Positions 3,298-45,778 of a stretch of DNA of 64,000 nt are shown here, one piece after another. The DNA comes from Leptolyngbyaceae cyanobacterium (GTDB lineage Bacteria > Cyanobacteriota > Cyanobacteriia > Cyanobacteriales > Aerosakkonemataceae): the NCBI GenBank assembly GCA_036703985.1, contig DATNQN010000097.1:1-64000 (forward strand). The letters run 5' to 3'. A program made the position numbers and the translations under genes. The notes below the pieces were generated by a model. It saw nothing but the letters and a program-made list of their open reading frames with translations. It was not told the origin of the DNA and searched no databases. Within the stretch, counting starts at the first letter, position 1; each line of letters begins with the position of its first letter.

Positions 3298-5145
3298 TTA
3301 ATTTTTTGAATTCTGACTCCTGAATTCTGACTCCTGAATTCTGACTCCTGACTCCTGATTTTCTTTTCTCCCAATCAACAGATAAGTGGTCATTTCTCCT
3401 TTCCCTTTGATCTGAATGACACCCCTTTCTTGCAATACATATTTTTCTTTTAAACAGTTGTAAGTTGCTTCTGTGACTTGGATACAACCAGGTAAGCCGT
3501 GGGATTCCATGCGGCTGGCTGTATTAACCGTATCACCCCACAAATCGTAAATAAACTTTTTAATTCCGATCACTCCTGCCACAACCGGCCCAGTATTGAT
3601 GCCAATTCGCATACTAAAATCTACTTTATTTTTAGTATTAAATTTTTCAATTTCTCGTTGCATATCGAGAGCCATTTCTGCCATTGCTTCAGCATGATCG
3701 GGTCGAGGAATGGGCAAACCTCCTACTACCATATAAGCATCACCAATAGTTTTAATTTTTTCCAATCCATGTTGTTCTACTAATCGGTCGAAAGCAGAAA
3801 ATATCTGGTTGAGTAAATTAACTAATTCCACCGGAGATGTATGGGCTGCCATTTTGGTGAAGCCAACAATATCAGCAAATAATACGGTTGCTTCCGCGAA
3901 ATTATCCGCAATGGTGCAAGAGTCTTTTTTTAAGCGAACTGCTATTACTTCCGGTAAAATATTAAGTAACAACTTTTCTGCTTTCTCTCTTTCTATTTTC
4001 AATTCTTTAAGAGAACGTTCCAAAGCTTCTAACATCCAGTTAATCGTGAGTCCCAAACTGGACAATTCATCGTTACCTTTAGCCGATACTCGCATTGAAA
4101 GGTCGCCGCTACTACCAATATTTTTGACACCAGTACTTAGTCTAGCTAATCGAGATAAGACTAATTTTTCTAATAAAAATAAATTGCCAATTCCAAAAAC
4201 TACACCGACTCCTACTAGCGACCAAAGGAGATAGGAAAGGCTATTTTTACCTTGATTGTAGATGGTTCTGGGTAATTTTACTTGCAATAAAAGAGCGGGT
4301 TGACCGTAAATATCTGTAATTAAGTTATATCCTGCAATGGTATTTTCATCTAATTGCTGGGCAGTAATATGAGCGGTAGCAAGTGATTTTACATTGGTCT
4401 GTTTCAATGGAAAAACGGCTTTATTTTTACTTTCTATTTGATTAGGTATAGAATTTCTTGATTGCTCAACTAAGGAATTAATAATTAACTGTAAATTGGT
4501 AGATAATTGCGGAGATTTAACCAGATATATATCGATATTTAACTGAGTGAGGACGGACAACCGCTTAATCTCTTCTGGCGTAAGATAGCGCCCCATCACC
4601 ATAGTTCCTTGGATGTCTCCTTGAAAAGTGTTTTTCACAATCGGATGGGAAACGATCAAAAGCGGATTCTCTGGTAACAAAATAATACCAGTACGAATGC
4701 TGTCGGGGTGAGAATGTTTTAGCAGCAAGCTGTTTGGCTTGAGATGTTGTAAAATTTCTTTTTCTATGGGAAAACTTTGACTTTTCTTAAAATCCCAATT
4801 TTTGCTAAAAACCACTTTACCAGAACGGTCGATTAATAGGGCTATATTCAGCCTGTAATCTGAAAAAGTATCATCACTAAAATTTGTTTCTAAATACCGT
4901 GCGTTTGGCTGCTGCATGAAGAGGTAAGTATCATCCCAAACAGCTAATTGGCGAACTGGTACGGTTAAATTATTGATATCTTCTGCTAAAGCATCTAAAG
5001 CACGTTGTACTCCTCTTTTTGTATAATCTACTTCTAAATTCCGGACTTGGTTCATGAGGATGGTAGATGCAGTGGCATATAAAACGCCTACTAACCCAAC
5101 CAAAGTTAAACCAATAACAAGGAGTGTCTTTTCACGTAGTTTCAT
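3298..5145 (-). CDS. CHASE4-HAMP class III adenylate cyclase
   Basis: 615-residue membrane sensor cyclase making cAMP. TM1 (8-30) is followed by an extracytoplasmic CHASE4-type sensor (about 35-300, with QLAVWDDTYLF and YRLNIALLIDRSGKVV), TM2 (303-327), HAMP (328-380) and a catalytic domain (about 410-590). Asp425 and Asp469 are the metal ligands (FADIVGFT, IGDAYM). Lys465 and Asp534 (KTIGD, YDLWGD) are the adenine-selecting pair, and Asn541 and Arg545 the transition-state residues, so a complete adenylate cyclase set is present. The last roughly 22 residues are encoded by a 14-bp tandem repeat and are probably a recent extension. Confidence 0.93.
   Translation of the reverse strand: MKLREKTLLVIGLTLVGLVGVLYATASTILMNQVRNLEVDYTKRGVQRALDALAEDINNLTVPVRQLAVWDDTYLFMQQPNARYLETNFSDDTFSDYRLNIALLIDRSGKVVFSKNWDFKKSQSFPIEKEILQHLKPNSLLLKHSHPDSIRTGIILLPENPLLIVSHPIVKNTFQGDIQGTMVMGRYLTPEEIKRLSVLTQLNIDIYLVKSPQLSTNLQLIINSLVEQSRNSIPNQIESKNKAVFPLKQTNVKSLATAHITAQQLDENTIAGYNLITDIYGQPALLLQVKLPRTIYNQGKNSLSYLLWSLVGVGVVFGIGNLFLLEKLVLSRLARLSTGVKNIGSSGDLSMRVSAKGNDELSSLGLTINWMLEALERSLKELKIEREKAEKLLLNILPEVIAVRLKKDSCTIADNFAEATVLFADIVGFTKMAAHTSPVELVNLLNQIFSAFDRLVEQHGLEKIKTIGDAYMVVGGLPIPRPDHAEAMAEMALDMQREIEKFNTKNKVDFSMRIGINTGPVVAGVIGIKKFIYDLWGDTVNTASRMESHGLPGCIQVTEATYNCLKEKYVLQERGVIQIKGKGEMTTYLLIGRKENQESGVRIQESEFRSQNSKN
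3307..3358. repeat. 14-bp tandem repeat at the cyclase 3' end
   Basis: Three copies of TGAATTCTGACTCC followed by a half unit. The array lies inside the reading frame of the cyclase and encodes its Gln/Glu/Ser-rich tail. Related GAATTCTGACT tracts occur between genes at 15500-15535 and 22804-22858. Confidence 0.85.
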
Positions 5146-8070: not shown

Positions 8071-8390
8071 GGATCTATCTATATGGGTATCGTGTCAGTC
8101 AACATCTCAATTTTTACATTTTGTTGAGCAAGTGGGGACTGGACGATTTTAGATTTTCGATTTTAGATTTTCGATTGAAATGCAATTAACTTTGGTCAAA
8201 ACTACATCTTCATCTGCGTTCATCTGCGTTCATCCCTCTTTATCTGCGGTTTTTAAACTTATCTATCACTTTTACCACAATCCCAATCTACGCTTTCCAT
8301 TTTGCCATGCCCAATTTGTTGTTAATCCCATTTACCAAAAACTTAAGTACTGTAAACAGTCGTAAATTTAAGTAAACAGGTATTCCCTCT
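8071..8390. other. Intergenic region upstream of alaS with short repeats
   Basis: Contains two copies of a GATTTTAGATTTTC unit (8145-8176) and a CATCTGCGTT repeat (8212-8260) that recurs near 2125. It should hold the alaS promoter, but no confident -10/-35 pair was picked out. No gene is seen. Confidence 0.5.
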
Positions 8391-10015: not shown

Positions 10016-10092
10016 TAAAATTAATATTGCAATATCTTCTATTCGCAAAATTTGCCACTTTAATAGCATTAGCTCCTAGACAGAAAACCAAA

Positions 10093-13000
10093 ATGATCGA
10101 CATTGACGGCTACCAAATTCTCGCTCAAATCTATGAAAGTGCCAACTCGGAAGTTTATCGCGCCATTCGCAAGACTGATGGCCAAAAAATCATCCTCAAA
10201 GTCCTCAAACAAGATTACCCTACACCAGCCGAGCTCACTCGCTACAAACAAGAATACGAACTCACGCGCAGCCTTAATCAAGAGGGTGTAGTTAAAGCTT
10301 ATGGTTTAGAGAAATATCAAAATAGTTTAGTGATGTTTCTGGAAGATTTTGACGGTGAATCCTTGAAAATCTTAATAGAAAACCATCAGTTCAGTTTAGA
10401 AGAATTTCTTTCAATTGCTATTAAAATTGCTACGAGTTTAGGACAAATTCATTTTGCCAATATTATCCATAAAGATATCAATCCTGCCAATATTGTACTT
10501 AATCGGGAAACCCAGCAATTAAAAATTATCGATCTCGGCATTTCTACGCGGTTAACCAGAGAAGATCCCACACTCAAAAACCCCAACGGATTAGAAGGAA
10601 CTTTACCTTATATTTCCCCCGAACAAACCGGACGAATGAACCGGAGTTTAGATTATCGCACCGACTTTTATTCCTTAGGCATCACGTTGTACGAACTGTT
10701 AACCGGACAACTGCCCTTTGCAACAGACGATGATTTGGAATTAGTTCATTGTCATATTGCCAAACAACCTTTATCACCCTCAGAGATTAACCCATTAATT
10801 CCGCCTGTCCTCGCCAATATCGTGATGAAATTAATGGCGAAAAATGCCGAAGATAGGTATCAAAGCGCTTGGGGATTAAAAGCGGATTTAGAAAATTGTT
10901 TAAAAAAATTCCAATCTACCGGAAATATAGAAAATTTTACCTTAGCGACTCACGATATTTCCGATCGATTTCACATTCCTCAAAAATTATACGGAAGAGA
11001 AGCAGAAGTTGAAGCTCTATTAACAGCTTTTGAGCGAGTAGCCAACTCAGAAATATCTCAAATCGAAATGATGTTAGTCGCTGGTTATTCTGGCATTGGA
11101 AAATCATCCCTCGTAGCGGAAATTCACAAACCCAATACCAGACTGAGGGGCTATTTTACTGAGGGGAAATTTGACCAATTTCAAAAGAGTATTCCTTACT
11201 CCGCTGTCGTCAATGCCTTTAAGGGATTAGTGCGGCAATTATTAACCGAAAGCGAAGCCCAGTTAGAACAATGGCGGGCAAAACTTAGCCGTGCTTTTGG
11301 AGTCAACGGTCAAGTGATTATTGATGTAATTCCCGAAGTAGAATTAATTGTCGGTAAACAGCCACCCGTGCCAGAATTAGGGGCAAGCGAATCACAAAAT
11401 CGCTTTAATATTGTCTTTGGTAATTTCATCCGCGCCTTCTGTACGAAAGAGCATCCATTAGTCATATTTCTAGATGATTTGCAGTGGGCAGACTCCGCGA
11501 CGCTCAAGTTAATTGAACTGATGATGACAGATACAGATATGGGATATCTGTTTTTAATTGGAGCTTATCGGGATAATGAAGTTAGCCCCAGCCATCCCTT
11601 GATGATAACAGTAAATAGATTGCTCAAAGCAGGAGCAACGATTAATTCGATTACTTTAGTTCCTTTAGGATTAGAAAATATTAGCCAACTTATTGCCGAT
11701 ACATTATATAGCGAGCTTGATTCAGTAAAACCATTAGCAGAATTATTGGTAAAGAAAACTCAAGGAAATCCATTTTTTGTCAATCAATTTCTGAAAACTC
11801 TGCACGCGGAAAACCTCATAACATTTGATTTTTCAAGTCAGCAATGGCAGTGGAATATTGCCCAAATTGAAGCACAAAATATTACTGATAATGTGGTAGA
11901 CTTGATGATCGGCAAGTTGAAGAAACTGCCGGAATTAACCCAAGAAGTTTTACGTTTAGCTGCTTGTATTGGTGCTTCTTTTTCTTTAAGCACTTTGGGG
12001 ATCGTCAGTGAAAAACCCAAAGAGGTAATTTTTTCCGACTTAGTTATAGCCGTTCAGACTGGATTTATTTTGCCAACATCTGAGTTAGACGAAAACCTGT
12101 TAATTCAAGATTATAAATTTCTCCACGACCGCGTACAACAAGCTGCTTATACTTTGATTGCTGACTCGGATAAAAAAGGCGTTCACTTAAAAATAGGGCG
12201 CTTATTACAACTGAATATGTCCGAAACAGAACAAGAGGCCAAAATTTTCGATCTCGTCGAACATTTTAATATGGGGCGCGAGTTAATTATCCATCAAGTC
12301 GAAAAAACAGCCTTAGCTAAATTTAATTTAATTGCTGCTCGCAAAGCTAAAGATTCAACGGCGTATTTGGCAGCACGAGAATATTTGGAAGTCGGACTTT
12401 CGTTATTAAGTAACGATTGTTGGCGATCGGAATATCAATTAACTCTGGATCTTTACAAAGAAAGAGCGGAAATTGAGTATTTAAACGGTAACTTCGAGCA
12501 AGCTGAAGAATTGATTCATTTGACGATCGACAAATGCAAAACTAACTTAGAAAAAGCAGAAATTTATAATATTTTAATTGTTATGTTAACCATGATGGCT
12601 AAATATGAACAAGCTATTACTGCGGCTCGACAAGCCTTAAGTTTATTCGGGATTGAGTTAACCGATCGCGATTTCACCAATAGTTTACAACGAGAATTAG
12701 CGGAAGTGCGAAAACTCTGGCAACCCGGTCAAATTAACGCCCTGCTAGAGCAACCTGAAATGACCGATCCCCAAATGAGAGCGGCTCTCAATTTATTAGT
12801 GAGCGTCGATCCTGCCGCTTATTTTATTAACGGCGAACTTTATGGAATTATTGCCGCTAAAATGGCTTCTCTTTCCATTCAATATGGCCCGATCGCATCT
12901 TCAGCTAAAGGTTATGCTAGTTATGGAATTATCTTAAGTTCAGTTTTACAGGAATATCGATCGGGCTATGAATTTGCTCGTTTGGGGTTAAATATTTCGT

Positions 13001-15375
13001 ATCGCTTTAATGACTCATCGATGAAAGCGAAAGCTGCTAATAACCTGGCAAATCACGTTCAAAATTGGGTTCGCCCCATCAAAGAAGCAGAGTCCATTAA
13101 TAACGAAGGCTATCAAGCAGGTTTAGAATCAGGTGAATTACAATTTGCTGGCTATCTTGCCTTCCATAAACTACTTAATTTTTTTGTTTCCGGTAGAAGC
13201 TTTAGTGAAATTTTAGCTGTCCTCGACGGCTATTTAAAATTTACTTTAAAAATTAAAAACTTATTAGCTTATCATACTATCATTGCCTGCCAAATACCCA
13301 TTTATAATTTAAGTGGCTTGAGTTCTAACCAGGGGGAATTCGCCACCGAATCGATCGACGAAGCTGATTATATCGAAGATTGCCAAAGGAATAAAAACTT
13401 TTTTGCCCTCTGTCATTACTTAACTTATAAAGCCCAAGTACTTTATTTATATAGAAATTATCGAGAAGCACTTAATTGCCTCCAAGAAGCTCAAACCATG
13501 TTCTCTGCCGTGCAGGGAATGATTATCAGTGCTGTTAACAATTTTTATACTTCTTTAGTTTTAGCTGCTCTTTATCCCACAGCTAATGAATCCGATAAAC
13601 TTGATTATCAAAAACAAATTGAAATTAATCAACAACAAATGAAGATTTGGGCAGATAACTGTCCGGAAAACTTTTTACACGAATACCTGTTAGTACAGGC
13701 GGAAATGGCTCGGATTTCCGGTCAAGAAATGGCAGCGCTAGATTTGTACGATCGCGCCATTACTTTGGCTCAAACCAATGAATACATTCAGATAGAAGCT
13801 TTAGGTAACGAACTAGCAGCTAAATTTTGGTTAGGAAAAGGTAAGGAGGAAATTGCCAAACTGTATCTGAAAAAAGCCCACTATGCTTACCAATTTTGGG
13901 GAGCTAAACGCAAAGTAGAGGATTTGGAGCAGAAATATCCGCAGTTCTTATCGGAAAAATTAGTTAAGAAAACCACTCATCGCTCAACATTTACTAGCTC
14001 AGCCACTTCCACAAATGCAGGAAATTCTGATATTGATTTGACTACAGTTATCAAAGCATCTCAAGTTTTGGCGGGTGAAATTGCCATCGATAAATTGTTG
14101 GCAAAATTAATGAGAATCGTATTAGAAAATGGCGGAGCGGAAAAAGGATTGCTGATTCTCTCAACCAACGGAAAATTAACCATTGAAGCCGCCGGAGAAG
14201 TTACTCAACAAACCGTACAAGTTTTGCAATCTTTGGTTGTTGATAATTACGAAAATTTGCCTGTGGGAATGGTTAAGTATGTTGCCAGAACTCGGGAAGA
14301 TGTAGTTTTATCAGATGCCACAAACGAGAAAGTTTTCATCAACGAACCTTATATTGTCAAAAATAAACCTAAGTCAATTTTATGCGCTCCGATTATTAAT
14401 CAAGGTAAACTCATTGGCATTCTTTACCTAGAAAATAATTTGACAACGGGAGCGTTTACTAGGGAGCGTCTCGAAATTCTCAAACTGATCTCTTCCCAGG
14501 CAGCAATTTCGATTGAAAATGCTTTACTTTATCAAACCTTAGAAAATAAAGTGATCGAACGCACTGCCCAATTAGCCGCAGCCAATCAAGAAATTAGTAT
14601 CCTTAATGAAAAATTGAAAGCGGAAAATTTGCGCCTCAGTGCGGAGTTAAATGTGGCGAAAAAATTACAAGAAATGGTGTTACCAAAACCCACAGAATTA
14701 GCAATGATTCCCGGTTTGGAAATTGCCGGTTATATGGAACCTGCCGATGAAGTTGGGGGCGATTATTATGATGTTTTATCGAGTGAGCATGGGGTCAAGA
14801 TAGCGATCGGTGATGTAACCGGACACGGATTAGAAAGTGGTGTATTAATGCTGATGGCACAAACAGCAGTGAGAACTCTTCAAAAAGTGAATGAAACCGA
14901 TCGCGTTCGCTTTTTAGATATTGTTAATCAAACTTTATATGATAATTTGCGACGAATGAAGTCTGATAAAAATATGACGTTAGCAATTTTAGATTATGCT
15001 GACGGTGTGGTGACATTAAGCGGACAACATGAGGAAATGATTATCGTGCGAACCGATGGAATGGTGGAAAGAATCGATACTATTGACTTGGGATTTCCGA
15101 TCGGTTTAGATGCAAATATAGCTGGTTTTATTGACCAGACAACAGTTAAATTAAATAGCCAAGATGTCGTCATTTTATATAGTGATGGAGTTACAGAAGC
15201 CGAGAATGTTAATAAACAGCTATATGGGTTAGAAAAACTCTGTCAAATCGTGGTAGAAAATCGCCAACTTTCTGCCGAAGAAATTCGTCAATCCGTTATT
15301 GAAGATATTCGTCAATTTATTGGAAAACAGAAGGTATTTGATGATATTACATTAGTAGTTTTAAAACAAAAATGA
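10093..15375 (+). CDS. Giant Ser/Thr kinase - AAA ATPase - GAF - SpoIIE phosphatase
   Basis: 1760 residues from the ATG at 10093; an upstream TTG at 10027 would add 22 residues with no homology. An N-terminal protein kinase (about 1-280) has catalytic HKDINPAN at 126-133 and IIDLGIS replacing DFG. A STAND/AAA-type ATPase follows, with Walker A GYSGIGKSS from 331 and Walker B VIFLDDLQWAD. Then come a long TPR-like helical region, a GAF domain (about 1310-1483), a short coiled coil and a PP2C/SpoIIE phosphatase (about 1540-1760; GDVTGHG from 1573 and YSDGVTEAEN). The architecture is that of cyanobacterial multidomain sensor kinases, with a phosphatase instead of a histidine kinase output. Likely substrates are STAS anti-anti-sigma proteins; one is encoded at 17775. 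Confidence 0.92.
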   Translation: MIDIDGYQILAQIYESANSEVYRAIRKTDGQKIILKVLKQDYPTPAELTRYKQEYELTRSLNQEGVVKAYGLEKYQNSLVMFLEDFDGESLKILIENHQFSLEEFLSIAIKIATSLGQIHFANIIHKDINPANIVLNRETQQLKIIDLGISTRLTREDPTLKNPNGLEGTLPYISPEQTGRMNRSLDYRTDFYSLGITLYELLTGQLPFATDDDLELVHCHIAKQPLSPSEINPLIPPVLANIVMKLMAKNAEDRYQSAWGLKADLENCLKKFQSTGNIENFTLATHDISDRFHIPQKLYGREAEVEALLTAFERVANSEISQIEMMLVAGYSGIGKSSLVAEIHKPNTRLRGYFTEGKFDQFQKSIPYSAVVNAFKGLVRQLLTESEAQLEQWRAKLSRAFGVNGQVIIDVIPEVELIVGKQPPVPELGASESQNRFNIVFGNFIRAFCTKEHPLVIFLDDLQWADSATLKLIELMMTDTDMGYLFLIGAYRDNEVSPSHPLMITVNRLLKAGATINSITLVPLGLENISQLIADTLYSELDSVKPLAELLVKKTQGNPFFVNQFLKTLHAENLITFDFSSQQWQWNIAQIEAQNITDNVVDLMIGKLKKLPELTQEVLRLAACIGASFSLSTLGIVSEKPKEVIFSDLVIAVQTGFILPTSELDENLLIQDYKFLHDRVQQAAYTLIADSDKKGVHLKIGRLLQLNMSETEQEAKIFDLVEHFNMGRELIIHQVEKTALAKFNLIAARKAKDSTAYLAAREYLEVGLSLLSNDCWRSEYQLTLDLYKERAEIEYLNGNFEQAEELIHLTIDKCKTNLEKAEIYNILIVMLTMMAKYEQAITAARQALSLFGIELTDRDFTNSLQRELAEVRKLWQPGQINALLEQPEMTDPQMRAALNLLVSVDPAAYFINGELYGIIAAKMASLSIQYGPIASSAKGYASYGIILSSVLQEYRSGYEFARLGLNISYRFNDSSMKAKAANNLANHVQNWVRPIKEAESINNEGYQAGLESGELQFAGYLAFHKLLNFFVSGRSFSEILAVLDGYLKFTLKIKNLLAYHTIIACQIPIYNLSGLSSNQGEFATESIDEADYIEDCQRNKNFFALCHYLTYKAQVLYLYRNYREALNCLQEAQTMFSAVQGMIISAVNNFYTSLVLAALYPTANESDKLDYQKQIEINQQQMKIWADNCPENFLHEYLLVQAEMARISGQEMAALDLYDRAITLAQTNEYIQIEALGNELAAKFWLGKGKEEIAKLYLKKAHYAYQFWGAKRKVEDLEQKYPQFLSEKLVKKTTHRSTFTSSATSTNAGNSDIDLTTVIKASQVLAGEIAIDKLLAKLMRIVLENGGAEKGLLILSTNGKLTIEAAGEVTQQTVQVLQSLVVDNYENLPVGMVKYVARTREDVVLSDATNEKVFINEPYIVKNKPKSILCAPIINQGKLIGILYLENNLTTGAFTRERLEILKLISSQAAISIENALLYQTLENKVIERTAQLAAANQEISILNEKLKAENLRLSAELNVAKKLQEMVLPKPTELAMIPGLEIAGYMEPADEVGGDYYDVLSSEHGVKIAIGDVTGHGLESGVLMLMAQTAVRTLQKVNETDRVRFLDIVNQTLYDNLRRMKSDKNMTLAILDYADGVVTLSGQHEEMIIVRTDGMVERIDTIDLGFPIGLDANIAGFIDQTTVKLNSQDVVILYSDGVTEAENVNKQLYGLEKLCQIVVENRQLSAEEIRQSVIEDIRQFIGKQKVFDDITLVVLKQK

Positions 15376-21325: not shown

Positions 21326-22699
21326 TCACCCATTCCCCAATTGAATAATATTAGCGGTCACGGCCATACTTTCTTCATATAAGCGATCGCGACCCCAACG
21401 CTGTAACTGCTGCGCCAACAAATTTTCTGCCTTTTGATCGAACAAAGGAGTCACTTGTTGAATGCGACAAGATTGAGCGCCGCCACCTGCTTCCATCCGC
21501 ATACAACCACCCGTTTCCGAACACAGAACCGTGCAGCAGTCAGCGTTCATATTAGTGGAAGTCAACCGTAACCCGATTAAATCGCCCGGTATATCACCCA
21601 CATCAGCAGTGGGAATTGCTGCCAACTCCGCTTCTATTTGTCGTCCATTCTCAGTCACGAAATGAATGCGCTTGATATCATATTCGCCACCCTCCGATTG
21701 ATAATCGGTAGGTTGCCATTGCAAGCGACTCGCCAACCAACCCAAATACATTAAAGCTTGAGTGGGATTGCCTTTTTCATAGTCAATTGTCACGCGATCG
21801 ATTTCTTGAATCGAAGCGCGACGTTCCGGTGGATCGAAAGCTTCTGCCGTTAACTCTTGCCATGCTGCCAACCGACGCCAGTTCAAATCAGCGATCGGTA
21901 TATTAGAATCTAACAAGCTTTTTACTTGCAACAATTCGGTTTCCGGTTCCTGAGAGCGGCTGGTGTCAATAATTACCGAATTGCACGCTCCTGAGAGTCG
22001 TTTAAACAAACCATTTTCCAGGTCTGGAGTGGCTTTCCACCACAAGAATTTAGGCAGTTCACCGATCAGCAAGGCAGGGATCATGCCAGCAATTCGTTCG
22101 AGAGCCGATTGAGTACCTGTCAGGGTAATATACTCGCAACAAATCAAGCTACTACGAGATTGCTTTTGCACCGGGCAATAAGCCGAAACTTGCGCTTTTA
22201 CTCCTTCATCTTCTCCTGCCATCGGACAAAGAGCGATGATCCGGCAGGGATTAGCAGCAGCTATAGCATCTGCCACCCCAGCACCGCTAGCATCCAACGC
22301 ATACTGGGGTAGCGTTCCCCCGTTTCCGTCGGATGGTATCGGCTGACCGCGTTTTTTGGCCACTTCCTCCCGCAGTTTAGCCACCGTTTCCGGGTTAGAT
22401 TGCCCCGTAACAGGGAGATCGAAAGCTTTTTGCACTGCTTCCAAAGCCGCCACAGTACGCGGCCCATCAATACCATCGATCGGCCCGGTGTAAAATCCCA
22501 AAGTTGCCAGTAATTGTTGAGTTTCTTCTGGTTCGTAGACTACTAAGCTAAAAGTTGCGGCTCTTGTTGCCGCTGGGTAAGCGCCATCCCCAGATGCACT
22601 GTAACTCTGCCAAATTTGACTGAGTTCCGTCTCGATTTCATTGACTGAAAGATCCTTGGGTGGTTGCAAAGAAACAATCGGAGCAGTTGGTGTAACCAT
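21326..22699 (-). CDS. opcA: OpcA, glucose-6-phosphate dehydrogenase assembly/activator protein
   Basis: 457 residues. OpcA is the allosteric partner that raises G6PDH activity and links it to thioredoxin control in cyanobacteria. The body matches the family (GDGAYPAATRAATFSLVVYEPEE, KFLWWKATPDLENGLFKRL, RMEAGGGAQSC near the end). A peptidoglycan-binding-like motif (LLATLGFYTGPIDGIDGPRTVAALEAVQ) sits at about residues 63-90. Several Cys residues suit redox regulation. It lies downstream of zwf on the same strand, separated by 181 bases of tandem repeats. Confidence 0.95.
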   Translation of the reverse strand: MVTPTAPIVSLQPPKDLSVNEIETELSQIWQSYSASGDGAYPAATRAATFSLVVYEPEETQQLLATLGFYTGPIDGIDGPRTVAALEAVQKAFDLPVTGQSNPETVAKLREEVAKKRGQPIPSDGNGGTLPQYALDASGAGVADAIAAANPCRIIALCPMAGEDEGVKAQVSAYCPVQKQSRSSLICCEYITLTGTQSALERIAGMIPALLIGELPKFLWWKATPDLENGLFKRLSGACNSVIIDTSRSQEPETELLQVKSLLDSNIPIADLNWRRLAAWQELTAEAFDPPERRASIQEIDRVTIDYEKGNPTQALMYLGWLASRLQWQPTDYQSEGGEYDIKRIHFVTENGRQIEAELAAIPTADVGDIPGDLIGLRLTSTNMNADCCTVLCSETGGCMRMEAGGGAQSCRIQQVTPLFDQKAENLLAQQLQRWGRDRLYEESMAVTANIIQLGNG

Positions 22700-22726
22700 A
22701 GGAAAATATGAAGTGTAAAGTGTTAA

Positions 22727-22858
22727 AAAAAAGGGGCTAGGGGCTAGGGGCTAGGGAAAGGGAAAGGGAGGAGGGAGTGTATAGGGTAGAGAATAGTTGT
22801 TTTGTATCCTGACTTCTGAATTCTGACTTCTGAATTCTGAATTCTGACTCCTGACTTC
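22727..22858. repeat. Tandem repeats between zwf and opcA
   Basis: Three GGGGCTA units followed by GGGAAA units (22727-22777), then GACTTCTGAATTCT units (22804-22858) of the same family as at 3307-3358. Because zwf and opcA are normally co-transcribed, the tract sits inside the presumed operon leader of opcA. Confidence 0.8.
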
Positions 22859-22880
22859 ATCCTTCACCCTTCATCCTTTT

Positions 22881-24410
22881 TTAAGATCTGCGCCAGCGCC
22901 GACCGTCACGATTAATTAGTAGTTCTGCTGCTGCTGGTTCCCAGGTTCCTGCTTCGTACTGGGGAATGCTAGCGGGATCGGTGGGTGCTTCCCAAGCTGT
23001 GAGTGCTGGGGTGACTACTCGCCAAGCTTCTTCCACCTCATCAGCGCGGGTAAACAAAGTTTGATCTCCTAACATACAGTCTAGCAAGAGGCGATCGTAA
23101 GCATCTCCGCTGGTTTGTCCAAAAGCCGCCCCATAGCGAAAATCCATTTCTACAGTTCGACTGCGTACCTCCAATCCAGGCATCTTCACCTCAAACCGCA
23201 AAGCAATCCCCTCATTCGGCTGAATCCGCATAATCAGCACGTTGGGACTCACCTGTTGTGCAGCTGTTTGAAATAAAAGATACGGCACTTCCCGAAACTG
23301 AATCGCAATTTCCGATACCTTTTTCGGTAACCGCTTGCCAGTTCTCAGGTAGAACGGTACTCCCTGCCAACGCCAGTTATCGATCAAAAACTTCATCGCC
23401 ACATAAGTTGGCGTAGTGGAATTGGGATTTACCCCCTTTTCTTGTCGATACCCCGGCACTTGTTGCCCTTTCATCCAACCAGCAGCATACTGTCCTCGCA
23501 CTGCGGAAAATTCCAAGTTGCGAACATCTGCCAGGTGAGTAGCTTGCAGTACCTTTAACTTTTCATTCCGCACGCTATCTGCATCTAGAGAGTTGGGCGG
23601 TTCCATCGCTGTCAGGCAAAATAGCTGCATCAAGTGATTCTGCACCATATCCCGCAGCGCCCCAGAAGTTTCGTAGTAACCGGCTCGATCCTCCACCCCT
23701 ACAGTTTCCGCTACGCTAATCTGGACGTGATCGACAAATTGGCGATTCCACAAAGGTTCAAAGATGGCGTTCGCAAACCGAAATACTAATAAATTTTGAA
23801 CTGTTTCTTTACCTAAATAATGGTCGATCCGGTAAACTTGCTGTTCTTTGCAAACTTTATATACTACTTGGTTAAGCGCTCTGGCCGAACTCAAATCGCG
23901 ACCAAACGGTTTTTCAATTACCAGTCGGGTTTTAATCGGATCGTCGAGCATCCCTGCTCCTCCTAACTGGCGAATCGCTTCTGGAAAGAAGTTAGGGGAA
24001 ACAGATAGATAAAAAACTCGATTTCCCCGCGTTCCCCTCCGTCCATCTAGTTCACCCAAAAATTGTTTGAGTTTTTGGTAACTTTCCGGTTTGTCCATGT
24101 CACCGGCACAGTAAAACAATCCATCCGCAAAGTCTTGCCAGAGTTCCTCAGAACCGATGCCGTCCGAGAATTCCTCGATTCCTTCCCGCATCTGTTCCCG
24201 AAAGTAATCGTGACTCCAATCCCGACGCGCAAAACCAACGATCGTCATTTCTGGGGGCAATCGCCGTTCCCGTTTTAAATGGTAAAGTGCTGGCACCAGT
24301 TTCCGTTGGGTGAGGTCGCCAGATGCACCGAAAATAACTAGGATTTGCGGCTCAGGTGTCCTTTCTTGTTGTAAACCTACGCGGAGGGGATTTTCTAAGA
24401 GCGTTACCAT
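22881..24410 (-). CDS. zwf: Glucose-6-phosphate 1-dehydrogenase
   Basis: 509 residues; first enzyme of the oxidative pentose-phosphate pathway, glucose-6-P to 6-phosphogluconolactone with NADP. The coenzyme loop [19 protein letters not shown] is at about 26-44. The active-site signature [21 protein letters not shown] is at about 195-215. The ATG directly follows the stop codon of the preceding coiled-coil gene, so the two are very probably translated from one message. It is the main dark and heterotrophic NADPH source in cyanobacteria. Confidence 0.98.
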
Positions 24411-25226
24411 CTATCGTTTTCCTTCTATAGCTTCTAGTCTTGCCATTACCGCTTCATATTTGGCGGTCATTTCTTGTAGTTGCTGAGTTAAAGTGCTGAC
24501 TTGAGTGGTTAGAGCGTTGATTTGTCCTTCATATTCAGCTTTCACCTCTTCTCGGATTTTTTCTCTTTCATAAGCAAGGCGTTTTTCCCAATCGATGTCT
24601 CGCTGTCTGAGTTCGGCTTTGAGTTGTCTGTTCTCTTCTCGCAGCCGTTCTAGTTCAGCCGCAACTTCAGCCGCACGTTGTTTTCTTTCTAGATTTTGTT
24701 GCCTGAGTCGTTCCTTAAGCTGCTGATTTTCTTGACGCAACTGTTCTACTTCCGAGGAAGTATCTGCTGAATTTCGTCTTGTCGATCGAGAAGACACTCG
24801 CCTTTCGACTAAACGCTGAACTGCCGCTCCTGTGGGAATTCCATTCGGTGCTGACTCTACAGCTTCTTGCCAAATTTCTAGTTGCAGCGCTGGAGGGAGG
24901 TTGCTCAAAGAACGAATTTGATTTTCCTTTGTAGGAAGAATGTCGCCAATTGGCGACAAATTTTCCCTAACTTGGGCAGCTTGGATCAACCGATAGGCTC
25001 TCTGTCTTGCGATACCCCACTTTTCCTTGCAGTATGCGTCAAAAGTTTTGTGCGTTTCCCGATATAGTCTCTTCTCCCGAATCTCGTCTAGAGCTTTCCC
25101 GACTTCGTAAAAGGTTTGCAGTCCTTGCTCGATGACTGTTTCGAGTTCTGTCAGCCTAGCTTGTTCGGCAGCATCGAGTTGAGCGTTGGCATAATTGAGA
25201 TCTAGCAGATCGTTTGCAGTTGACAT
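24411..25226 (-). CDS. ParB/KorB-like DNA-binding coiled-coil protein inside the OPP cluster
   Basis: 271 residues from the ATG at 25226 (a TTG lies 7 codons earlier). An N-terminal helical region (ELETVIEQGLQTFYEVGKALDEIREKRLY...TFDAYCKEKWGIARQRAYRLIQAA) resembles a helix-turn-helix seen in phage- or plasmid-borne proteins. Another helical segment follows, then more than 100 residues of Gln/Arg/Glu-rich coiled coil to the C-terminus. Function is unknown; DNA binding is inferred. Its stop abuts the zwf ATG. It interrupts the usual tal-zwf order, so it is an addition to this cluster. Confidence 0.8.
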   Translation of the reverse strand: MSTANDLLDLNYANAQLDAAEQARLTELETVIEQGLQTFYEVGKALDEIREKRLYRETHKTFDAYCKEKWGIARQRAYRLIQAAQVRENLSPIGDILPTKENQIRSLSNLPPALQLEIWQEAVESAPNGIPTGAAVQRLVERRVSSRSTRRNSADTSSEVEQLRQENQQLKERLRQQNLERKQRAAEVAAELERLREENRQLKAELRQRDIDWEKRLAYEREKIREEVKAEYEGQINALTTQVSTLTQQLQEMTAKYEAVMARLEAIEGKR

Positions 25227-25302
25227 GGCGGTGTACCCCGATCGCAAATATTCTGATATGGGTCACGAAAATCGAACTTGACTCTCTTTGATTAAAGCAA
25301 CT

Positions 25303-25329
25303 CCCCCTTCTAGATGCCAAAGAAGGGGG
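25303..25329. terminator. Hairpin between tal and the coiled-coil gene
   Basis: CCCCCTTCT (25303-25311) and AGAAGGGGG (25321-25329) form a 9-bp stem with a 9-base loop. There is no long T-run in the direction of tal transcription, so it may attenuate or stabilise the message rather than end it. Confidence 0.5.
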
Positions 25330-25360
25330 AATACACTTCGAGCGAAAGTCTAAACCTAAA

Positions 25361-26506
25361 CTAAACTGGTTCTAGCTGTTTTACCTTGGTTTCCAACGAA
25401 TCCATCAGGGATTGGAATGGCTGCACGAATTTATCCAGTCCATCTACCAATAATTCGTCCATTACCTGATTAATATCGATGTTGATATCGGGGTCTTTCA
25501 AACTTTCCATTAAGTTGTAAGCTTCTTGGACGTTGCTTTCCACCCGATTATCGACATGACAGTGATCGGCACAAGCTTCGATCGTATTGGGTGGCAGGGT
25601 ATTCACTGTATCTGGGCCGATTAGCTCGTCCACGTACATCACGTCGCTGTAGCTGGGGTCTTTGGTGCTGGTGGAAGCCCACAGCAGACGTTGTACTTTC
25701 GCACCTTTAGCTGCCAATGCTTGCCAACGATCGGTCTGAATAATCTCTTTATATTTTTGATAGGCGATTTTGGCATTGGCGATCGCGATTTTTCCTTTGA
25801 TCGCTTTCAGTTTTACCTCTTGTTCAATCGCCGTAACCCCGGCTTTCAGCTTATCGTCAATTCGCTTATCGATGTTGCTGTCGATGCGGCTGAGGAAGAA
25901 ACTAGCCACCGAAGCGATTTTGCTAATATCTTTACCTTGGGCTGCCCGTTTTTCCAATCCCCGAATGTAAGCCCAGATTGTATTCACGTAGCTTTCCACC
26001 GAGAACAGCAGGGTAACGTTAACGTTGATGCCATCGGCAATTACTTCTTCTACTGCCGGCAATCCCGATGTGGTTCCCGGAATTTTGATCATCACGTTTT
26101 CCCGACCGATTTCTTGATAATAGCGACGGGCTTCATTAATCGTAGCTTCCGTATCGTGGGCGATTGTGGGTGGTACTTCGATGCTGATATAACCATCCAA
26201 ACCATTTGATTGTTCGTACACGGGGCGGAAGATATCGCAGGCATGGCGGATATCATCAAAAACTAACGATTCGTAAATTTTATAAGTTGGCAATCCTTGC
26301 TTAATGCCCTTTTCGATATCCGCATCGTAGATTTTGTTGCCTGCGATCGCTTTTTCAAAAATCGCTGGATTGGAAGTGATCCCCCGAATCCCACGATTTT
26401 CAATCATTTGTTTAAGTTCGCCGGATTCAACTAAATCGCGGCTCAAATTATCCATCCAGATGCTTTGACCGTATTGTGCAATCTCTAATATATGGTTCGT
26501 TGTCAT
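25361..26506 (-). CDS. tal: Transaldolase
   Basis: 381 residues from the ATG before TTNHILEIAQYGQSIWMDNLSRDLV; a GTG 6 codons upstream is less likely. It transfers a dihydroxyacetone unit between sugar phosphates in the non-oxidative pentose-phosphate pathway. Matches include GIRGITSNPAIFEKAI near the start, ENVMIKIPGTTSGLPAVEEVIADGINVNVTLLFS with the Schiff-base Lys in MIKIP, and LLWASTSTKDPSYSDVMYVDELIG. It is the long cyanobacterial/actinobacterial subtype. It lies between fbp and zwf. Confidence 0.97.
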   Translation of the reverse strand: MTTNHILEIAQYGQSIWMDNLSRDLVESGELKQMIENRGIRGITSNPAIFEKAIAGNKIYDADIEKGIKQGLPTYKIYESLVFDDIRHACDIFRPVYEQSNGLDGYISIEVPPTIAHDTEATINEARRYYQEIGRENVMIKIPGTTSGLPAVEEVIADGINVNVTLLFSVESYVNTIWAYIRGLEKRAAQGKDISKIASVASFFLSRIDSNIDKRIDDKLKAGVTAIEQEVKLKAIKGKIAIANAKIAYQKYKEIIQTDRWQALAAKGAKVQRLLWASTSTKDPSYSDVMYVDELIGPDTVNTLPPNTIEACADHCHVDNRVESNVQEAYNLMESLKDPDINIDINQVMDELLVDGLDKFVQPFQSLMDSLETKVKQLEPV

Positions 26507-26614
26507 GGTTATGTTTGGTTTCACTCTTAACTACTTTTGAGGGCTTGTTCAAGTTAAAAAGTCAAAAAATCGGGAAATTATCTTTCTTGCTTTCACCTTT
26601 TAACTTTTAGCTTT

Positions 26615-27685
26615 TTACTTTTTATTTGCCATCATGCTTTGGTCGTTGGCTTCTCTAGCACGTTCGGTGATGAAAGATTCCACCAGTGCTACATCGTCTT
26701 TACTACCAATAAACAGAGGTACGCGATCGTGCAGTTTAGTTGGCACCACATCCAGAATCTCTTGAGTGCCATTACTGGCGCGACCACCTGCTTGTTCGAC
26801 TAAAAAGGCTAAAGGTGCCGCTTCATAAATCAGGCGTAATTTACCTTGGGGTTGTTTGTGAGTACCTGGGTACAAAAACACCCCGCCCTGGAACAAAATC
26901 CGATGGAAGTCACCCACCAATGCTCCGCCATAGCGAGCGGTGTACCCTTCATGGCGATGGACGTAGCGGATGTAGTCCCGAAGTGATTCTTCCCACTGCC
27001 AAAAGTTACCTTCGTTAACGCTATAAACTGGCCCGTGTTGGGGAATCTGAATGTTTTCGGTAGAAAGGATAAACTCTCCTAAACTGGGATCGAGGGTGAA
27101 GGAGTGGACGCCTTTGCCGATGGAATATACCAACATCGTACTAGGGCCATAGAGTATATAACCTGCGGCGATTTGCTTGCGTCCGTTTTGCAACAAGTCG
27201 CGAGCTGCGCCATCTTCATCCGTTCCTTCTTGCTGGCGAATGGCAAAGATGGAACCTACATTCAGATTGCTATCAATGTTAGATGAGCCGTCGATCGGAT
27301 CGTAGAGTAGGGTATAGCGTCCTATAGGACAATTTTCTGGGATGTAGTAGGGGTTTTCCATCTCCTCAGAGGCAAGGCGACAGACCAGTCCGCTTTGCTT
27401 GAATACCGAGATAAAAACATCATTGGCATATATATCCATCTTTTTGACGGACTCTCCCTGCACGTTGACTTCCCCCGTGAATCCCAGTACGTTTTCCATC
27501 ACTCCGGCTCTAGAAAGACGCCGAGAGATCAGTTTTCCTGCCAACGCAATGCGATTCATCAAGGCACTCAGGTCTTGTGCATCTGCCGAAAAGCTCTGAA
27601 GTTGCTGCAAGACGTGCCGGGACAGGGTTGTACAATCTCGGTCGAGCGAGCGTTCTAGAGCTTCTGGCTGATTCTTGTCTGCCAT
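26615..27685 (-). CDS. fbp: Fructose-1,6-bisphosphatase class I
   Basis: 356 residues from ATG 27685 (AAGGAT ribosome-binding site 7 bases upstream); an upstream in-frame start would add 13 residues. It hydrolyses fructose-1,6-bisphosphate in gluconeogenesis and sugar recycling. Metal and substrate motifs are ASEEMENP and [23 protein letters not shown]. The C-terminal active-site region is [26 protein letters not shown]. It is first gene of the fbp-tal-(coiled coil)-zwf-opcA series. Confidence 0.98.
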
Positions 27686-28172
27686 TGTTTTTATCCTTAA
27701 TTCGCTTTCTGGCGGTCTGGGCAAGGGAGTGCGGCGCTTTTCATACGCCTGTTACTCTTTTGCAAAGCCCAATAGTGCTCCATTTCTATCTTAAAAAGGG
27801 TTTTTCCTACAGCCCTCTAACTTTAGATGAACTAAAGAAAGCCTATCTTGCCGTGACGATCGGTGGCTGTTATCTCTAAAAGTTGACAAATCTTATTTAA
27901 AGTCAGTAGTTAAACTAGGTTAACTTCAGATATTTACACTCCTGCCTTCAAACAGTACCGATCGTAAAGTTACATCGTTTTAGCTTTGTATAAAAGGTAG
28001 TTTTCCAGCTTGAATGTACTTAAAGGATAAGAATGATGCAATTTTAGGTTATCTGGTATAAATCTAGCTGGTTCGTTCGTATTTAACATTTTATCCAGTT
28101 TTTCGGTCAAACAGCCGATCACGATTAAACAGTAGCTTGTTATACCAAACACCCAAATTCACCAAAAGCAAG
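27686..28172. other. Gene-free region upstream of fbp
   Basis: About 490 bases between fbp and the hairpin at 28173. It probably contains the fbp operon promoter. A 60-codon minus-strand frame (27970-28152) has no homology or ribosome-binding site and is not called. Confidence 0.5.
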
Positions 28173-28530: not shown

Positions 28531-31500
28531 CTATACGGGTTTTTGTTCCGGCATCATGCACTTATCGGAATCGCAACCCGCTGGCCCTGCTTCTGTTAAA
28601 TAGCCTAAATCGTAATTACTCAAAGCAGTATGGAAATTATCTGTTTTCCGCCGCATTTGCACTTCTTTAATTAACTTCTCATACTGCTGTTTTGAAATTG
28701 GTTCAAAGGGCAGACGTGGGAAAGTTTGCAAGTCATCAAATCTGGCTAAAAGTGCTGCTGAAATATACCCTTCATCATCACGAATCGCTTCATAAATTCG
28801 CGTACCTAAAGCTTCGATTTCGTTCTCTCGGAGTTCTATCGTGGCGCTTGTGTTGTGTCGCACATAGCATTGTTGGACTTGCATATAAAAGTCCATTTGT
28901 GCCAATGCTGAGAATTTGCTGATATCAATTTCATCAGCACCAGGTAAGTCAGCCCAAAGTACGGAAACTGGGATTTCCACTAACCATTCAGAACATCGGG
29001 GATCGAAGGGGTCATTTAACAAATTCCCATTTTCATCTTTATCCGATTGAGATGGAATGACATTGTAACCGTAGTCAATACAAGCTAAGGCTACCGGGTC
29101 ATTTTTCCTAAAGGTAATGCGACGGATAAAACGTTGAGCTTTTGGTGGATGCCATCCAGGAGATGCACCAGTCAAGAGTGATTTTGTCCCCGATGGTTGA
29201 ACTGTAGTACAGCGATTTGGGCGTTTGATGCCGTGCTTGTCGCAATAATCCCAAACAACCCGATGGACAATTTCTCGCCAACGGTTTAAATACTCTTGTT
29301 CTTTGTGTTTAAACTCCAATCCTTGAGCAGTTTCCGGTCGTCCTTCAGTCCACCAATGCAACCAATCAACCCCAAAAGCATTCACGAAAAAGTCAAATAA
29401 GCCAGTGAAAGAAACACCTACAATAGGGTCTAATTCACGACTATATTGATAACGGGGTTCGAGAAATTTGTGATTCAAAAGTACCGCTACAGATAAAGCA
29501 CCTGCGGTGAAAGCATCCTCTTGTTCTTGGTAGTTTTGGGGATCGATTTGGTTGAGGTGGATCTCAGCTAAGTTACACTGTCCTGTTAGGGTGCCACCAA
29601 ATACTCCTTTATGGAATTCTGGCTCGTTGAAACAGAAGGTATCATGGTTTCCTGATAGAGGTTCGATCGATCGCACTACCTGATATTTACCTTTAGCATT
29701 GGGTTGATGACCCCTTGAACTATCCAACCGTTGACAAGGAATTGCTGCACAATCAGTAATTTGTAAATACCACAAATCACGATTTCGAGTCCCTAAATTG
29801 GTACTAGTTCCTACCTTTGCTACCAGATTAATGGAACAACGAATTCCACACTTAATCAACAATAAATAAACCCGATAAGCACGCTCGTAATCAGACAAAT
29901 AAATCCGAATACCGCCACTAGAAACCAATGAACCATCTGCATCTGCTAAACCAGCAATGAAATGCAATATCGATTCTCGATCCCAAGATGCAATTTCATT
30001 AAAGGCTGTAGCAGTATTTTTGAGAGCGCGAACTTGTTCGGGATCGAATTGCTTTTGGAATCCTACGTAAAGTAGACAAGGAACTTCTTTAGATTCTGTA
30101 TAATAGCGTTTTTTTCCGCTAGTTTTTCCAGCAATAGCTAACTCTTGATAGCATTTTACTCCGTACAGTCGAAGTTGTAATTGTGGCTTACCATTAGATT
30201 GACAAAGGGAACCATCACCCACCAATTGACCTAATGTATAAGCCCAAGTTGGTTCGACAAACTTGCCATCGCGATAAACGATTTGGAAGGTTTCAGTGTG
30301 TAGACTGTACTTGCTGGTTTTTAACCGTTCTGCAAGTTCTATTGTGGTTAATTCTTCATATTTTTTACTAAAGCGATCTTTGACAAAGAAACGGTGTTTT
30401 TCTGTCACATCTAGATATGTGCCATCACCAAAAGATACGCGATACAATTGACGATTTTGCCCCGTCAACATCGGTACTACTTGGCTCCAACGTTGACCAT
30501 TCCAAACTTCTACAGTTTGTCCGACAACATCTTGAATTTGGTGCATTCCATCGCGAGTAATTAGCATCGTTTTGCCTGAAACGCAGTGGAAGTTAGCGCC
30601 AAGAATTTCCCCGCATGGATTAAGTCCATAGCGACCTAAACGATGCTCTAATTCACTCTTAGAAATTTGTGGAAATTGTTTTTGCAACCATTGTTTTCCA
30701 TTTCCTTGAGAGTAAGCTTTCAGAAACTCTGTTTTTAATTCTGAATTGGTTAAAATATCGCAATTTGCCCTAGCTAAGGCTTCTCCAGCCCACTGAATTG
30801 CTCCTTCCCCAGAATAATACTGCTTTCTAACAGCTTCAATTGATTCCTCTAATGTAGGTTTATGGTGATAAACGCGAGAATGATTTGCCATTCGCAAAGC
30901 ATCTTTTTCTGAATCGATTCTCCAGTTTCCATTTTCATCTTGTTGCCATAGGTTAGATTTAGCATTAGCAAATAACTCGTCATTGCTAATGCCTTGGCGC
31001 ATTCCTGCTGACCTACGCACGTTACCAGCGACTACCACGACTGCTGCTTCGTCAATTAATAAACAGCATTCAACTGAGTTTAATTGTCTGCCAACAGCTT
31101 TGTTTAAAATCGCCGAACAACGCAAATAAAGATCGGGTAATTTAATTGGATTAGCAACTCCACCAAATCCTTTTAATATTTCTCCGGCGGGACGAACATT
31201 ACTCAAATCTACAATTACTTTAACTTCTTCAGAAAAGCGTTCATCTGTAGATAATTCTAGTAAAGTTTGATAGGATTTTACCCAACCTCTGCGGCTGTCA
31301 CCTACATAAATCGTGACTTGATTGCCAACAATGGTGACTTCGGTTTCTTCGCGACGTTGATTAATTGGAATAGCGCCAATTTCGCCTTGCAAGGTAACTT
31401 TTAAATGGTTGCGGATGGATGGTAATCGATCGATATACTGAGGTTCAAGGACGGCTCCGGTGCCGCAACCCATCATGGCTAAGTCCATCAGCAGTCCAAA

Positions 31501-31833
31501 GGCTCGCCAGTCACAGATGTTGGTGCTGCTGCAATTGTATCCGCCGGAAAAGTTTTCTGGTTGCTCGATCCACTCGGAACCTCCTACCCACAACCAGCGA
31601 CCGGAGGTGAGGGCTTTTAGCTGGCGCTGCATCCGGTCTATGAGGTCGGCTTCTTCGGGGGCGAGATGCCCTAGTTTAACTAATCCTCGGACAGTACGAT
31701 CGCATACTTGCTCCCAAGTTTCGCGCCCTTGTTCGGTGCGGCGGCTGTATGTTCTGAAGAATACTGGGTTTGCAGCAGGGGCAGTTTCCGGGAATTGGCT
31801 AGTTTGGCGTACCCGGTCAAGTTCTCGAACCAT
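28531..31833 (-). CDS. nrdJ: Adenosylcobalamin-dependent ribonucleoside-triphosphate reductase (class II) with intein
   Basis: The precursor is 1100 residues from the ATG at 31833; a further ATG 3 codons upstream (31842) exists. The 31833 choice is favoured because a duplicated copy at 32615 begins its homology there. Removing the 336-residue intein leaves about 764 residues, the monomeric NrdJ size. It reduces NTPs to dNTPs. NPCGEI holds the thiyl-radical Cys and the catalytic Glu; the Cys of CNLAEI after the splice is the redox partner. The C-terminal shuttle pair is CDSDKC. Numbered from 31842, the radical Cys is residue 410 and the intein occupies 420-755. Confidence 0.96.
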   Translation of the reverse strand: MVRELDRVRQTSQFPETAPAANPVFFRTYSRRTEQGRETWEQVCDRTVRGLVKLGHLAPEEADLIDRMQRQLKALTSGRWLWVGGSEWIEQPENFSGGYNCSSTNICDWRAFGLLMDLAMMGCGTGAVLEPQYIDRLPSIRNHLKVTLQGEIGAIPINQRREETEVTIVGNQVTIYVGDSRRGWVKSYQTLLELSTDERFSEEVKVIVDLSNVRPAGEILKGFGGVANPIKLPDLYLRCSAILNKAVGRQLNSVECCLLIDEAAVVVVAGNVRRSAGMRQGISNDELFANAKSNLWQQDENGNWRIDSEKDALRMANHSRVYHHKPTLEESIEAVRKQYYSGEGAIQWAGEALARANCDILTNSELKTEFLKAYSQGNGKQWLQKQFPQISKSELEHRLGRYGLNPCGEILGANFHCVSGKTMLITRDGMHQIQDVVGQTVEVWNGQRWSQVVPMLTGQNRQLYRVSFGDGTYLDVTEKHRFFVKDRFSKKYEELTTIELAERLKTSKYSLHTETFQIVYRDGKFVEPTWAYTLGQLVGDGSLCQSNGKPQLQLRLYGVKCYQELAIAGKTSGKKRYYTESKEVPCLLYVGFQKQFDPEQVRALKNTATAFNEIASWDRESILHFIAGLADADGSLVSSGGIRIYLSDYERAYRVYLLLIKCGIRCSINLVAKVGTSTNLGTRNRDLWYLQITDCAAIPCQRLDSSRGHQPNAKGKYQVVRSIEPLSGNHDTFCFNEPEFHKGVFGGTLTGQCNLAEIHLNQIDPQNYQEQEDAFTAGALSVAVLLNHKFLEPRYQYSRELDPIVGVSFTGLFDFFVNAFGVDWLHWWTEGRPETAQGLEFKHKEQEYLNRWREIVHRVVWDYCDKHGIKRPNRCTTVQPSGTKSLLTGASPGWHPPKAQRFIRRITFRKNDPVALACIDYGYNVIPSQSDKDENGNLLNDPFDPRCSEWLVEIPVSVLWADLPGADEIDISKFSALAQMDFYMQVQQCYVRHNTSATIELRENEIEALGTRIYEAIRDDEGYISAALLARFDDLQTFPRLPFEPISKQQYEKLIKEVQMRRKTDNFHTALSNYDLGYLTEAGPAGCDSDKCMMPEQKPV
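29578..30585 (-). other. Intein in NrdJ with LAGLIDADG homing endonuclease
   Basis: 336 residues between extein ...GEILGANFH and CNLAEIHLN. The N-terminal splice block starts with Cys (CVSGKTMLITRDG). Block B has VTEKH with the conserved Thr and His. Two dodecapeptide motifs, LGQLVGDGS and IAGLADADGS, keep their catalytic Asp residues, so the endonuclease looks intact. The C-terminal block ends GVFGGTLTGQ before Cys+1: the last residue is Gln instead of the usual Asn, and the penultimate residue is Gly rather than His. The insertion separates the catalytic NPCGEI loop from its partner Cys. Confidence 0.92.
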
Positions 31834-32046
31834 ATCTAACATGGAGTAACAAAACTTTTACTATACACCACGTCTTACATATAGAGTGCAAAGCTTTACA
31901 AATCAGGAATCTTGCGCTACATTTAGCGCTTACCTAGTTATAAAGTCAATAGTATCTTCTAGGTTGGTAAAACATCATAAATTTGGCTTTAAATAGAGAA
32001 AAACCCTGACTTTGTGAGTCAGGATTGAAGAGTAAACAATTTTCAA
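31834..32046. other. nrdJ leader region
   Basis: Contains a minus-strand terminator (32003-32025) for the upstream small gene, then about 170 bases before nrdJ. No B12-box-like sequence typical of a cobalamin riboswitch was recognised. AGCGCTA/TAGCGCT-like symmetry occurs around 31915-31930. Confidence 0.4.
32003..32025 (-). terminator. Rho-independent terminator
   Basis: On the minus strand CCTGACT-CACAA-AGTCAGG is followed by GTTTTTCTC. It lies about 20 bases after the stop of the 78-residue coiled-coil gene and separates it from nrdJ. Confidence 0.8.
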
Positions 32047-45659: not shown

Positions 45660-45778
45660 ATAAATTGAAGGATGAACGATGAAGTCTGAAGGCTGAAGGA
45701 TGAAGTCTGAAGGATAAAGGATGAAAATTTATTATATTTATCTCCCCTGCTCCCCTGCTCCCCATCCTCCCATCCTCC
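45660..45778. repeat. GAAGGATGAA and CTCCCC repeats
   Basis: Imperfect GAAGGATGAAGTCTGAAG units, then CTGCTCCCCTGCTCCCCATCC C-rich units. They fill the gap after the PBP gene, and no terminator is obvious. Confidence 0.75.

Follow-up and report, generated by a model that had tools for sequence, protein, structure and literature searches.

A class II ribonucleotide reductase gene, nrdJ, on the 64,000-nucleotide stretch of cyanobacterial DNA analysed here (the window) is interrupted by an in-frame intein that ends in Gly-Gln, where the standard class 1 ending is Asn with a penultimate His, and the question is what such an ending means: an error in the sequence, a mark of damage, a brake on splicing or an ordinary working state. 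We consider it very probable that the element is a mobile full-length class 1 intein, spliced via Gln336 and spread by its own endonuclease, whose terminal Gln is old and functional rather than a sign of decay.

The precursor frame is open throughout, and its match to TIGR02505 reaches 763.6 bits (cut-off 340). Its insert of exactly 336 codons has the junctions ...NPCGEILGANFH / CVSGKTML...GVFGGTLTGQ / CNLAEIHL..., and because nrdJ genes without an intein in the same family of genomes read ...NFHCNLSEIHL..., both ends are fixed; a shift of one residue is ruled out by chemistry alone, since position 1 must be a nucleophile. The first-pass annotation had described an NrdJ intein with exactly these ends, beginning with Cys, closing in GTLTGQ with Gln at the cyclising position and Gly before it, followed by Cys and retaining intact LAGLIDADG motifs, and in each of these respects it was borne out. 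It also placed the insert correctly, between the NPCGEI loop, whose Cys (30613-30615) we take to be the thiyl-radical Cys of NrdJ, and a Cys+1 whose counterpart in the solved B12-dependent reductase 1l1l is, by alignment, residue 419, presumably the redox-partner Cys. With the insert lying between the two, unspliced NrdJ should be inactive, as had been proposed. In the genome, given as 100% complete, searches for reductases of class I (alpha, PF02867; beta, PF00268) and of class III (PF13597) gave no match, PF02867 being blind to the window's NrdJ as well, so that other divergent class II genes could also escape it; a direct genome search with the NrdJ precursor found a single nrdJ. With nrdJ the only ribonucleotide reductase gene detected, and with the catalytic loop and the redox Cys 336 residues apart in the unspliced protein, splicing of NrdJ is presumably essential for growth.

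Table 1. Features of nrdJ and its predicted intein, in window coordinates.
Feature	Position	Strand	Basis
nrdJ, class II (B12-dependent) ribonucleotide reductase precursor, 1103 aa (767 aa extein + 336 aa intein)	28531..31842	-	ORF, TIGR02505, PDB 1l1l match
NPCGEI loop of NrdJ	30604..30621	-	Sequence; loop role from knowledge of class II reductases
Predicted full-length class 1 intein, 336 aa, Gln end	29578..30585	-	Sequence, intein-free alleles, alignment, model and fold
Cys1 of intein, first nucleophile (TGC)	30583..30585	-	Invariant in all aligned relatives
Block B T61-x-x-H64	30394..30405	-	Thr and His invariant in all aligned relatives
LAGLIDADG homing endonuclease domain, approximate limits, residues 110-290	29716..30258	-	PF14528, PDB profile and fold matches, low dN/dS
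First LAGLIDADG motif YTLGQLVGDGS (Asp124)	30208..30240	-	Sequence, conservation
Second LAGLIDADG motif FIAGLADADGS (Asp217)	29929..29961	-	Sequence, conservation
Cys318, block F position 4	29632..29634	-	Invariant; position assigned by motif reading
Gln336 (CAG), terminal residue expected to cyclise	29578..29580	-	Sequence; Gln in 26/27 of clade
Cys+1 of C-extein, also NrdJ redox Cys	29575..29577	-	Sequence, alignment to 1l1l

Routine domain searches recover little of this element. Pfam detects the endonuclease motif alone (PF14528) and no intein model of NCBIfam matched the precursor, so automatic annotation may miss the intein; the single intein sequence searched against PDB likewise gave no match. 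A profile of 46 relatives, searched against the same database, matches PI-PfuI, I-DmoI and PI-SceI in its endonuclease part and DnaE inteins in its N-terminal part, and an AlphaFold2 model built with these 46 relatives (mean pLDDT 93.3, pTM 0.92) aligns by VIA-align with TliVMA (Z 24.5, 301 residues, 3.5 A) and PI-PfuI (Z 23.4, 307 residues, 3.5 A), both alignments spanning residues 1-336. The proteins concerned (PI-PfuI, 1dq3; TliVMA, 7qss) share with the window's intein a splicing fold with an embedded LAGLIDADG endonuclease, at Z 23-24.5, but are larger and only 17% identical to it. Cys stands at both 1 and +1, block B reads T-x-x-H and the model has the HINT fold; none of the 118 sequences tallied departs from Cys1, Thr61, His64 or Cys318. 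Two LAGLIDADG motifs with their catalytic Asp124 and Asp217 lie within an endonuclease fold, and both residues are kept in 27/27 sequences of the clade of Gln-ending relatives (the Gln clade). Class 3 inteins are defined by the absence of a nucleophile at position 1 together with Trp at B:12, Cys at F:4 and Thr at G:5; although Cys318 and Thr334 would fit, Cys1 is present and residue 66 (B:12) is Phe, and we rejected a class 3 mechanism. Class 1 is accepted to include variants that end in Gln, Asp or Glu (PMC4031507), and sequence and model together place the element among full-length inteins of this class, with an endonuclease that looks intact.

How unusual the Gln is can be judged from its relatives. 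We surveyed 386 cyanobacterial genomes, and 70 genome loci and 74 viral loci yielded 122 distinct full inteins, a set that is non-exhaustive because the genomes were scanned with two peptide patterns taken from the query's own family; every one of the 122 ends in Gln or Asn. Of the 105 distinct inteins at the same site (before C-N-L), Gln closes 43 and Asn the other 62. The cyanobacterial sequences fall into two alleles. One, the Gln clade, has 27 rows, of which 26 end in Gln and 1 in Asn (support 100/100); the other, the Asn clade, ends in Asn throughout (support 98/97 in a reduced tree). Outside both clades, 17 of 18 viral same-site relatives end in Gln. Viral inteins at the neighbouring catalytic-Cys site mostly end in Asn (13 versus 4), and in the named phages sampled, where the readable ends are all at the catalytic-Cys site, Gln is about as frequent as Asn. 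Gln-ending inteins had been regarded as few in the first-pass annotation; here they are the rule in one of the two cyanobacterial alleles and in nearly all same-site viral relatives. Since Gln closes 26 of the 27 Gln-clade rows and 17 of the 18 other viral same-site sequences, it is, on these alignments, old, selected and lineage-wide at the redox-Cys site.

The same distribution leaves practically no room for an artifact of sequencing or assembly. A correction of the terminal codon to Asn had been named as a possible outcome, but CAG differs from both Asn codons at two bases, more than one misread base could account for, and many independent assemblies of relatives share Gln at this site; within the Gln clade the codon drifts between CAG and CAA with the residue unchanged. 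A coupling of the terminal residue to the penultimate Gly was rejected, as all Asn-ending cyanobacterial relatives carry this Gly too, and so was a coupling to residue -6, which is Gly in the Gln-ending clade but Asn in the other, because 17/17 viral Gln inteins have Asn at -6 and the one Asn-ending member of the Gln clade, L032, combines Gly with Asn.

Alternatively, one could envision a poorly splicing intein in decay, its Gln a harmful substitution that heralds loss. It has indeed been proposed that variant ends are stages through which inteins that have lost a catalytic residue evolve optimal activity (PMC4031507), but Gln is kept in 26 distinct inteins of distant cyanobacteria as well as in 17 viral relatives, and the catalytic set is complete in each of them. 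In measurable pairs of the Gln clade, moreover, dN/dS is 0.03-0.16 for the splicing domain and 0.06-0.18 for the endonuclease, values that point to purifying selection in both domains, and we regard decay as very unlikely. With viral Gln rows outside the cyanobacterial ones, the reduced tree requires two changes, both most simply from Gln to Asn. That Gln is ancestral at the redox-Cys site and stably kept, Asn having been regained at least once or twice, in L032 perhaps by recombination at the last codons with a resident Asn allele, is a scenario for which we judge the chances evenly balanced; if it is true, Gln and Asn are interchangeable working states, counter to the idea of Gln as the sign of an intein that is recovering from the loss of a catalytic residue.

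L032 itself, from a Microcoleus metagenome-assembled genome, is 87% identical to the window's intein, yet ends GGTLTGN (AAC). Up to its last 12 bases the L032 intein is of the Gln type; those 12 bases and the C-extein agree with Asn-type Microcoleus genes, and recombination within the last codons is possible, judging from few informative bases. L032 is nested in the Gln clade with bootstrap/SH-aLRT support of 99/90, but an AU test did not reject its placement outside the other 26 Gln rows (p 0.37), which weakens any firm claim that it is a Gln-to-Asn reversal. The pair offers a natural test bed for adaptation to Gln or Asn cyclisation, and the Gln-ending inteins found here are candidates for splicing tools with a Gln end.

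Comparison of the two also bears on mobility. The intein dS between the window and L032 is 0.56-0.63, against a saturated C-extein (pS 0.77), and between L012 and L052 it is 0.51-0.56, against 2.84 for the C-extein. The hosts nearest to the window by C-extein (88-91%) are intein-free or carry a 58%-identical Asn allele, and the nearest intein to the window's is in a Microcoleus with an 83% C-extein. Low intein dS relative to the C-extein, together with nearest hosts that have no Gln allele, makes lateral movement between cyanobacteria well supported by these comparisons, and we infer that it is driven by the intein's own endonuclease.

It could also be that the Gln slows the last cutting step and makes splicing a rate-limiting or conditional switch that keeps NrdJ inactive until a signal arrives. 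The insertion site and the sole-reductase status of NrdJ would make slow splicing matter, and two Pol II inteins that end in Gln splice slowly and gain speed with Asn; a viral reductase intein, that of Chilo iridescent virus (CIV), behaves in the opposite way, being faster and splicing more efficiently with Gln than with Asn (PMC4031507). Asn and Gln alleles moreover occupy the same gene and site in related hosts, and a near-identical intein ends in Asn, so that no consistent need for slowness is visible, and a switch of this kind seems to us improbable.

Our preferred reading, of ordinary splicing via Gln336, places the element beside known systems. The RIR1 intein of CIV, the reference example of the glutamine type, shares with it the reductase host protein family and the terminal Gln, and is reported to be efficient with its native Gln; the CIV reductase, however, we take to be class I and viral, and the window's NrdJ class II and cyanobacterial. 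NrdJ/RIR1 inteins of the Asn allele (Nostoc, Calothrix, Trichodesmium) have the same site, architecture and penultimate Gly and are 56-60% identical to the window's, but end in Asn and are about 13 residues shorter, with fixed differences mostly in the endonuclease. Phage reductase inteins (IMG/VR contigs) share the redox-Cys site before C-N-L and, in 17/18 outside the cyanobacterial clades, the Gln end, but are about 34-50% identical and have Lys, Tyr, Phe, His or Gly as the penultimate residue. An RIR1 intein site common to Bacillus prophages (SP-beta), three eukaryote viruses (iridoviruses are named) and one cyanobacterium was reported in 2006 (PMC1635734), nrdJ inteins in Thermosynechococcus in 2022 (PMC9403480), and glutamine-type inteins, CIV RIR1 included, have been published (PMC4031507, PMC549080). 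The terminal Gln that characterises this type is present in the window's intein and conserved in its clade; the type itself being known, what is new is its old, selected and lineage-wide state at this site. Terminal Gln generally figures as an uncommon and often slow exception; in these inteins it has persisted for long, alongside a matched Asn allele that occupies the same position.

As read from the sequence, the fold model, conservation, selection and lateral transfer, the chemistry, splicing and DNA cleavage would run as follows. After translation, Cys1 would take up the N-extein as a thioester, the chain would be transferred from Cys1 to Cys+1, Gln336 would cyclise to a glutarimide and thereby cut the branched intermediate, and an S-N shift would join the exteins, bringing the NPCGEI loop back beside its redox-partner Cys. 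The embedded LAGLIDADG endonuclease would cut intein-free nrdJ, spreading the element between cyanobacteria.

The surveyed loci show further interruptions of nrdJ. Many relatives (L011-L014, L038-L041, L053-L056 and others) have a second intein directly before the catalytic Cys, which ends HN and is followed by CGEI; two inteins then lie within about ten codons, each with a catalytic Cys as its +1 residue. In other relatives (L019, L020, L024 and L176-L181) the reading frame is broken between NPCG and E, as an intron would break it, and the exon starts ITKLEIIG, VTKLEIIG or similar; in L178 the sole Rfam match is a group II intron domain (L178:4745-4821), which may or may not be the element at the break. 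An Asn-type intein at L091:1556-2527 breaks off short of its end, and the C-extein lacks its beginning (GNTPYNF, then KEQEE); this represents a broken gene or a misassembly. The contigs L102, L104 and L122, labelled viral, carry in NrdJ inteins of the cyanobacterial Asn type, each preceded by a second intein, and are cyanophage or host DNA.

Within the window, nrdJ adjoins a segment on the minus strand (21326-27724) that encodes glucose-6-phosphate dehydrogenase and OpcA and, by sequence reading, transaldolase and fructose-bisphosphatase; this OpcA has a predicted peptidoglycan-binding domain (PF01471) close to its N-terminus. A single chain of 1782 aa at 10027-15375 (plus strand) combines a Ser/Thr kinase, an AAA_16 ATPase, a GAF domain and a SpoIIE phosphatase domain. 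Short tandem repeat arrays based on heptamers (CTGACTC, GATTTTA and TGAAGGA types) lie at 3307-3358, 8144-8176, 22807-22858 and 45666-45725.
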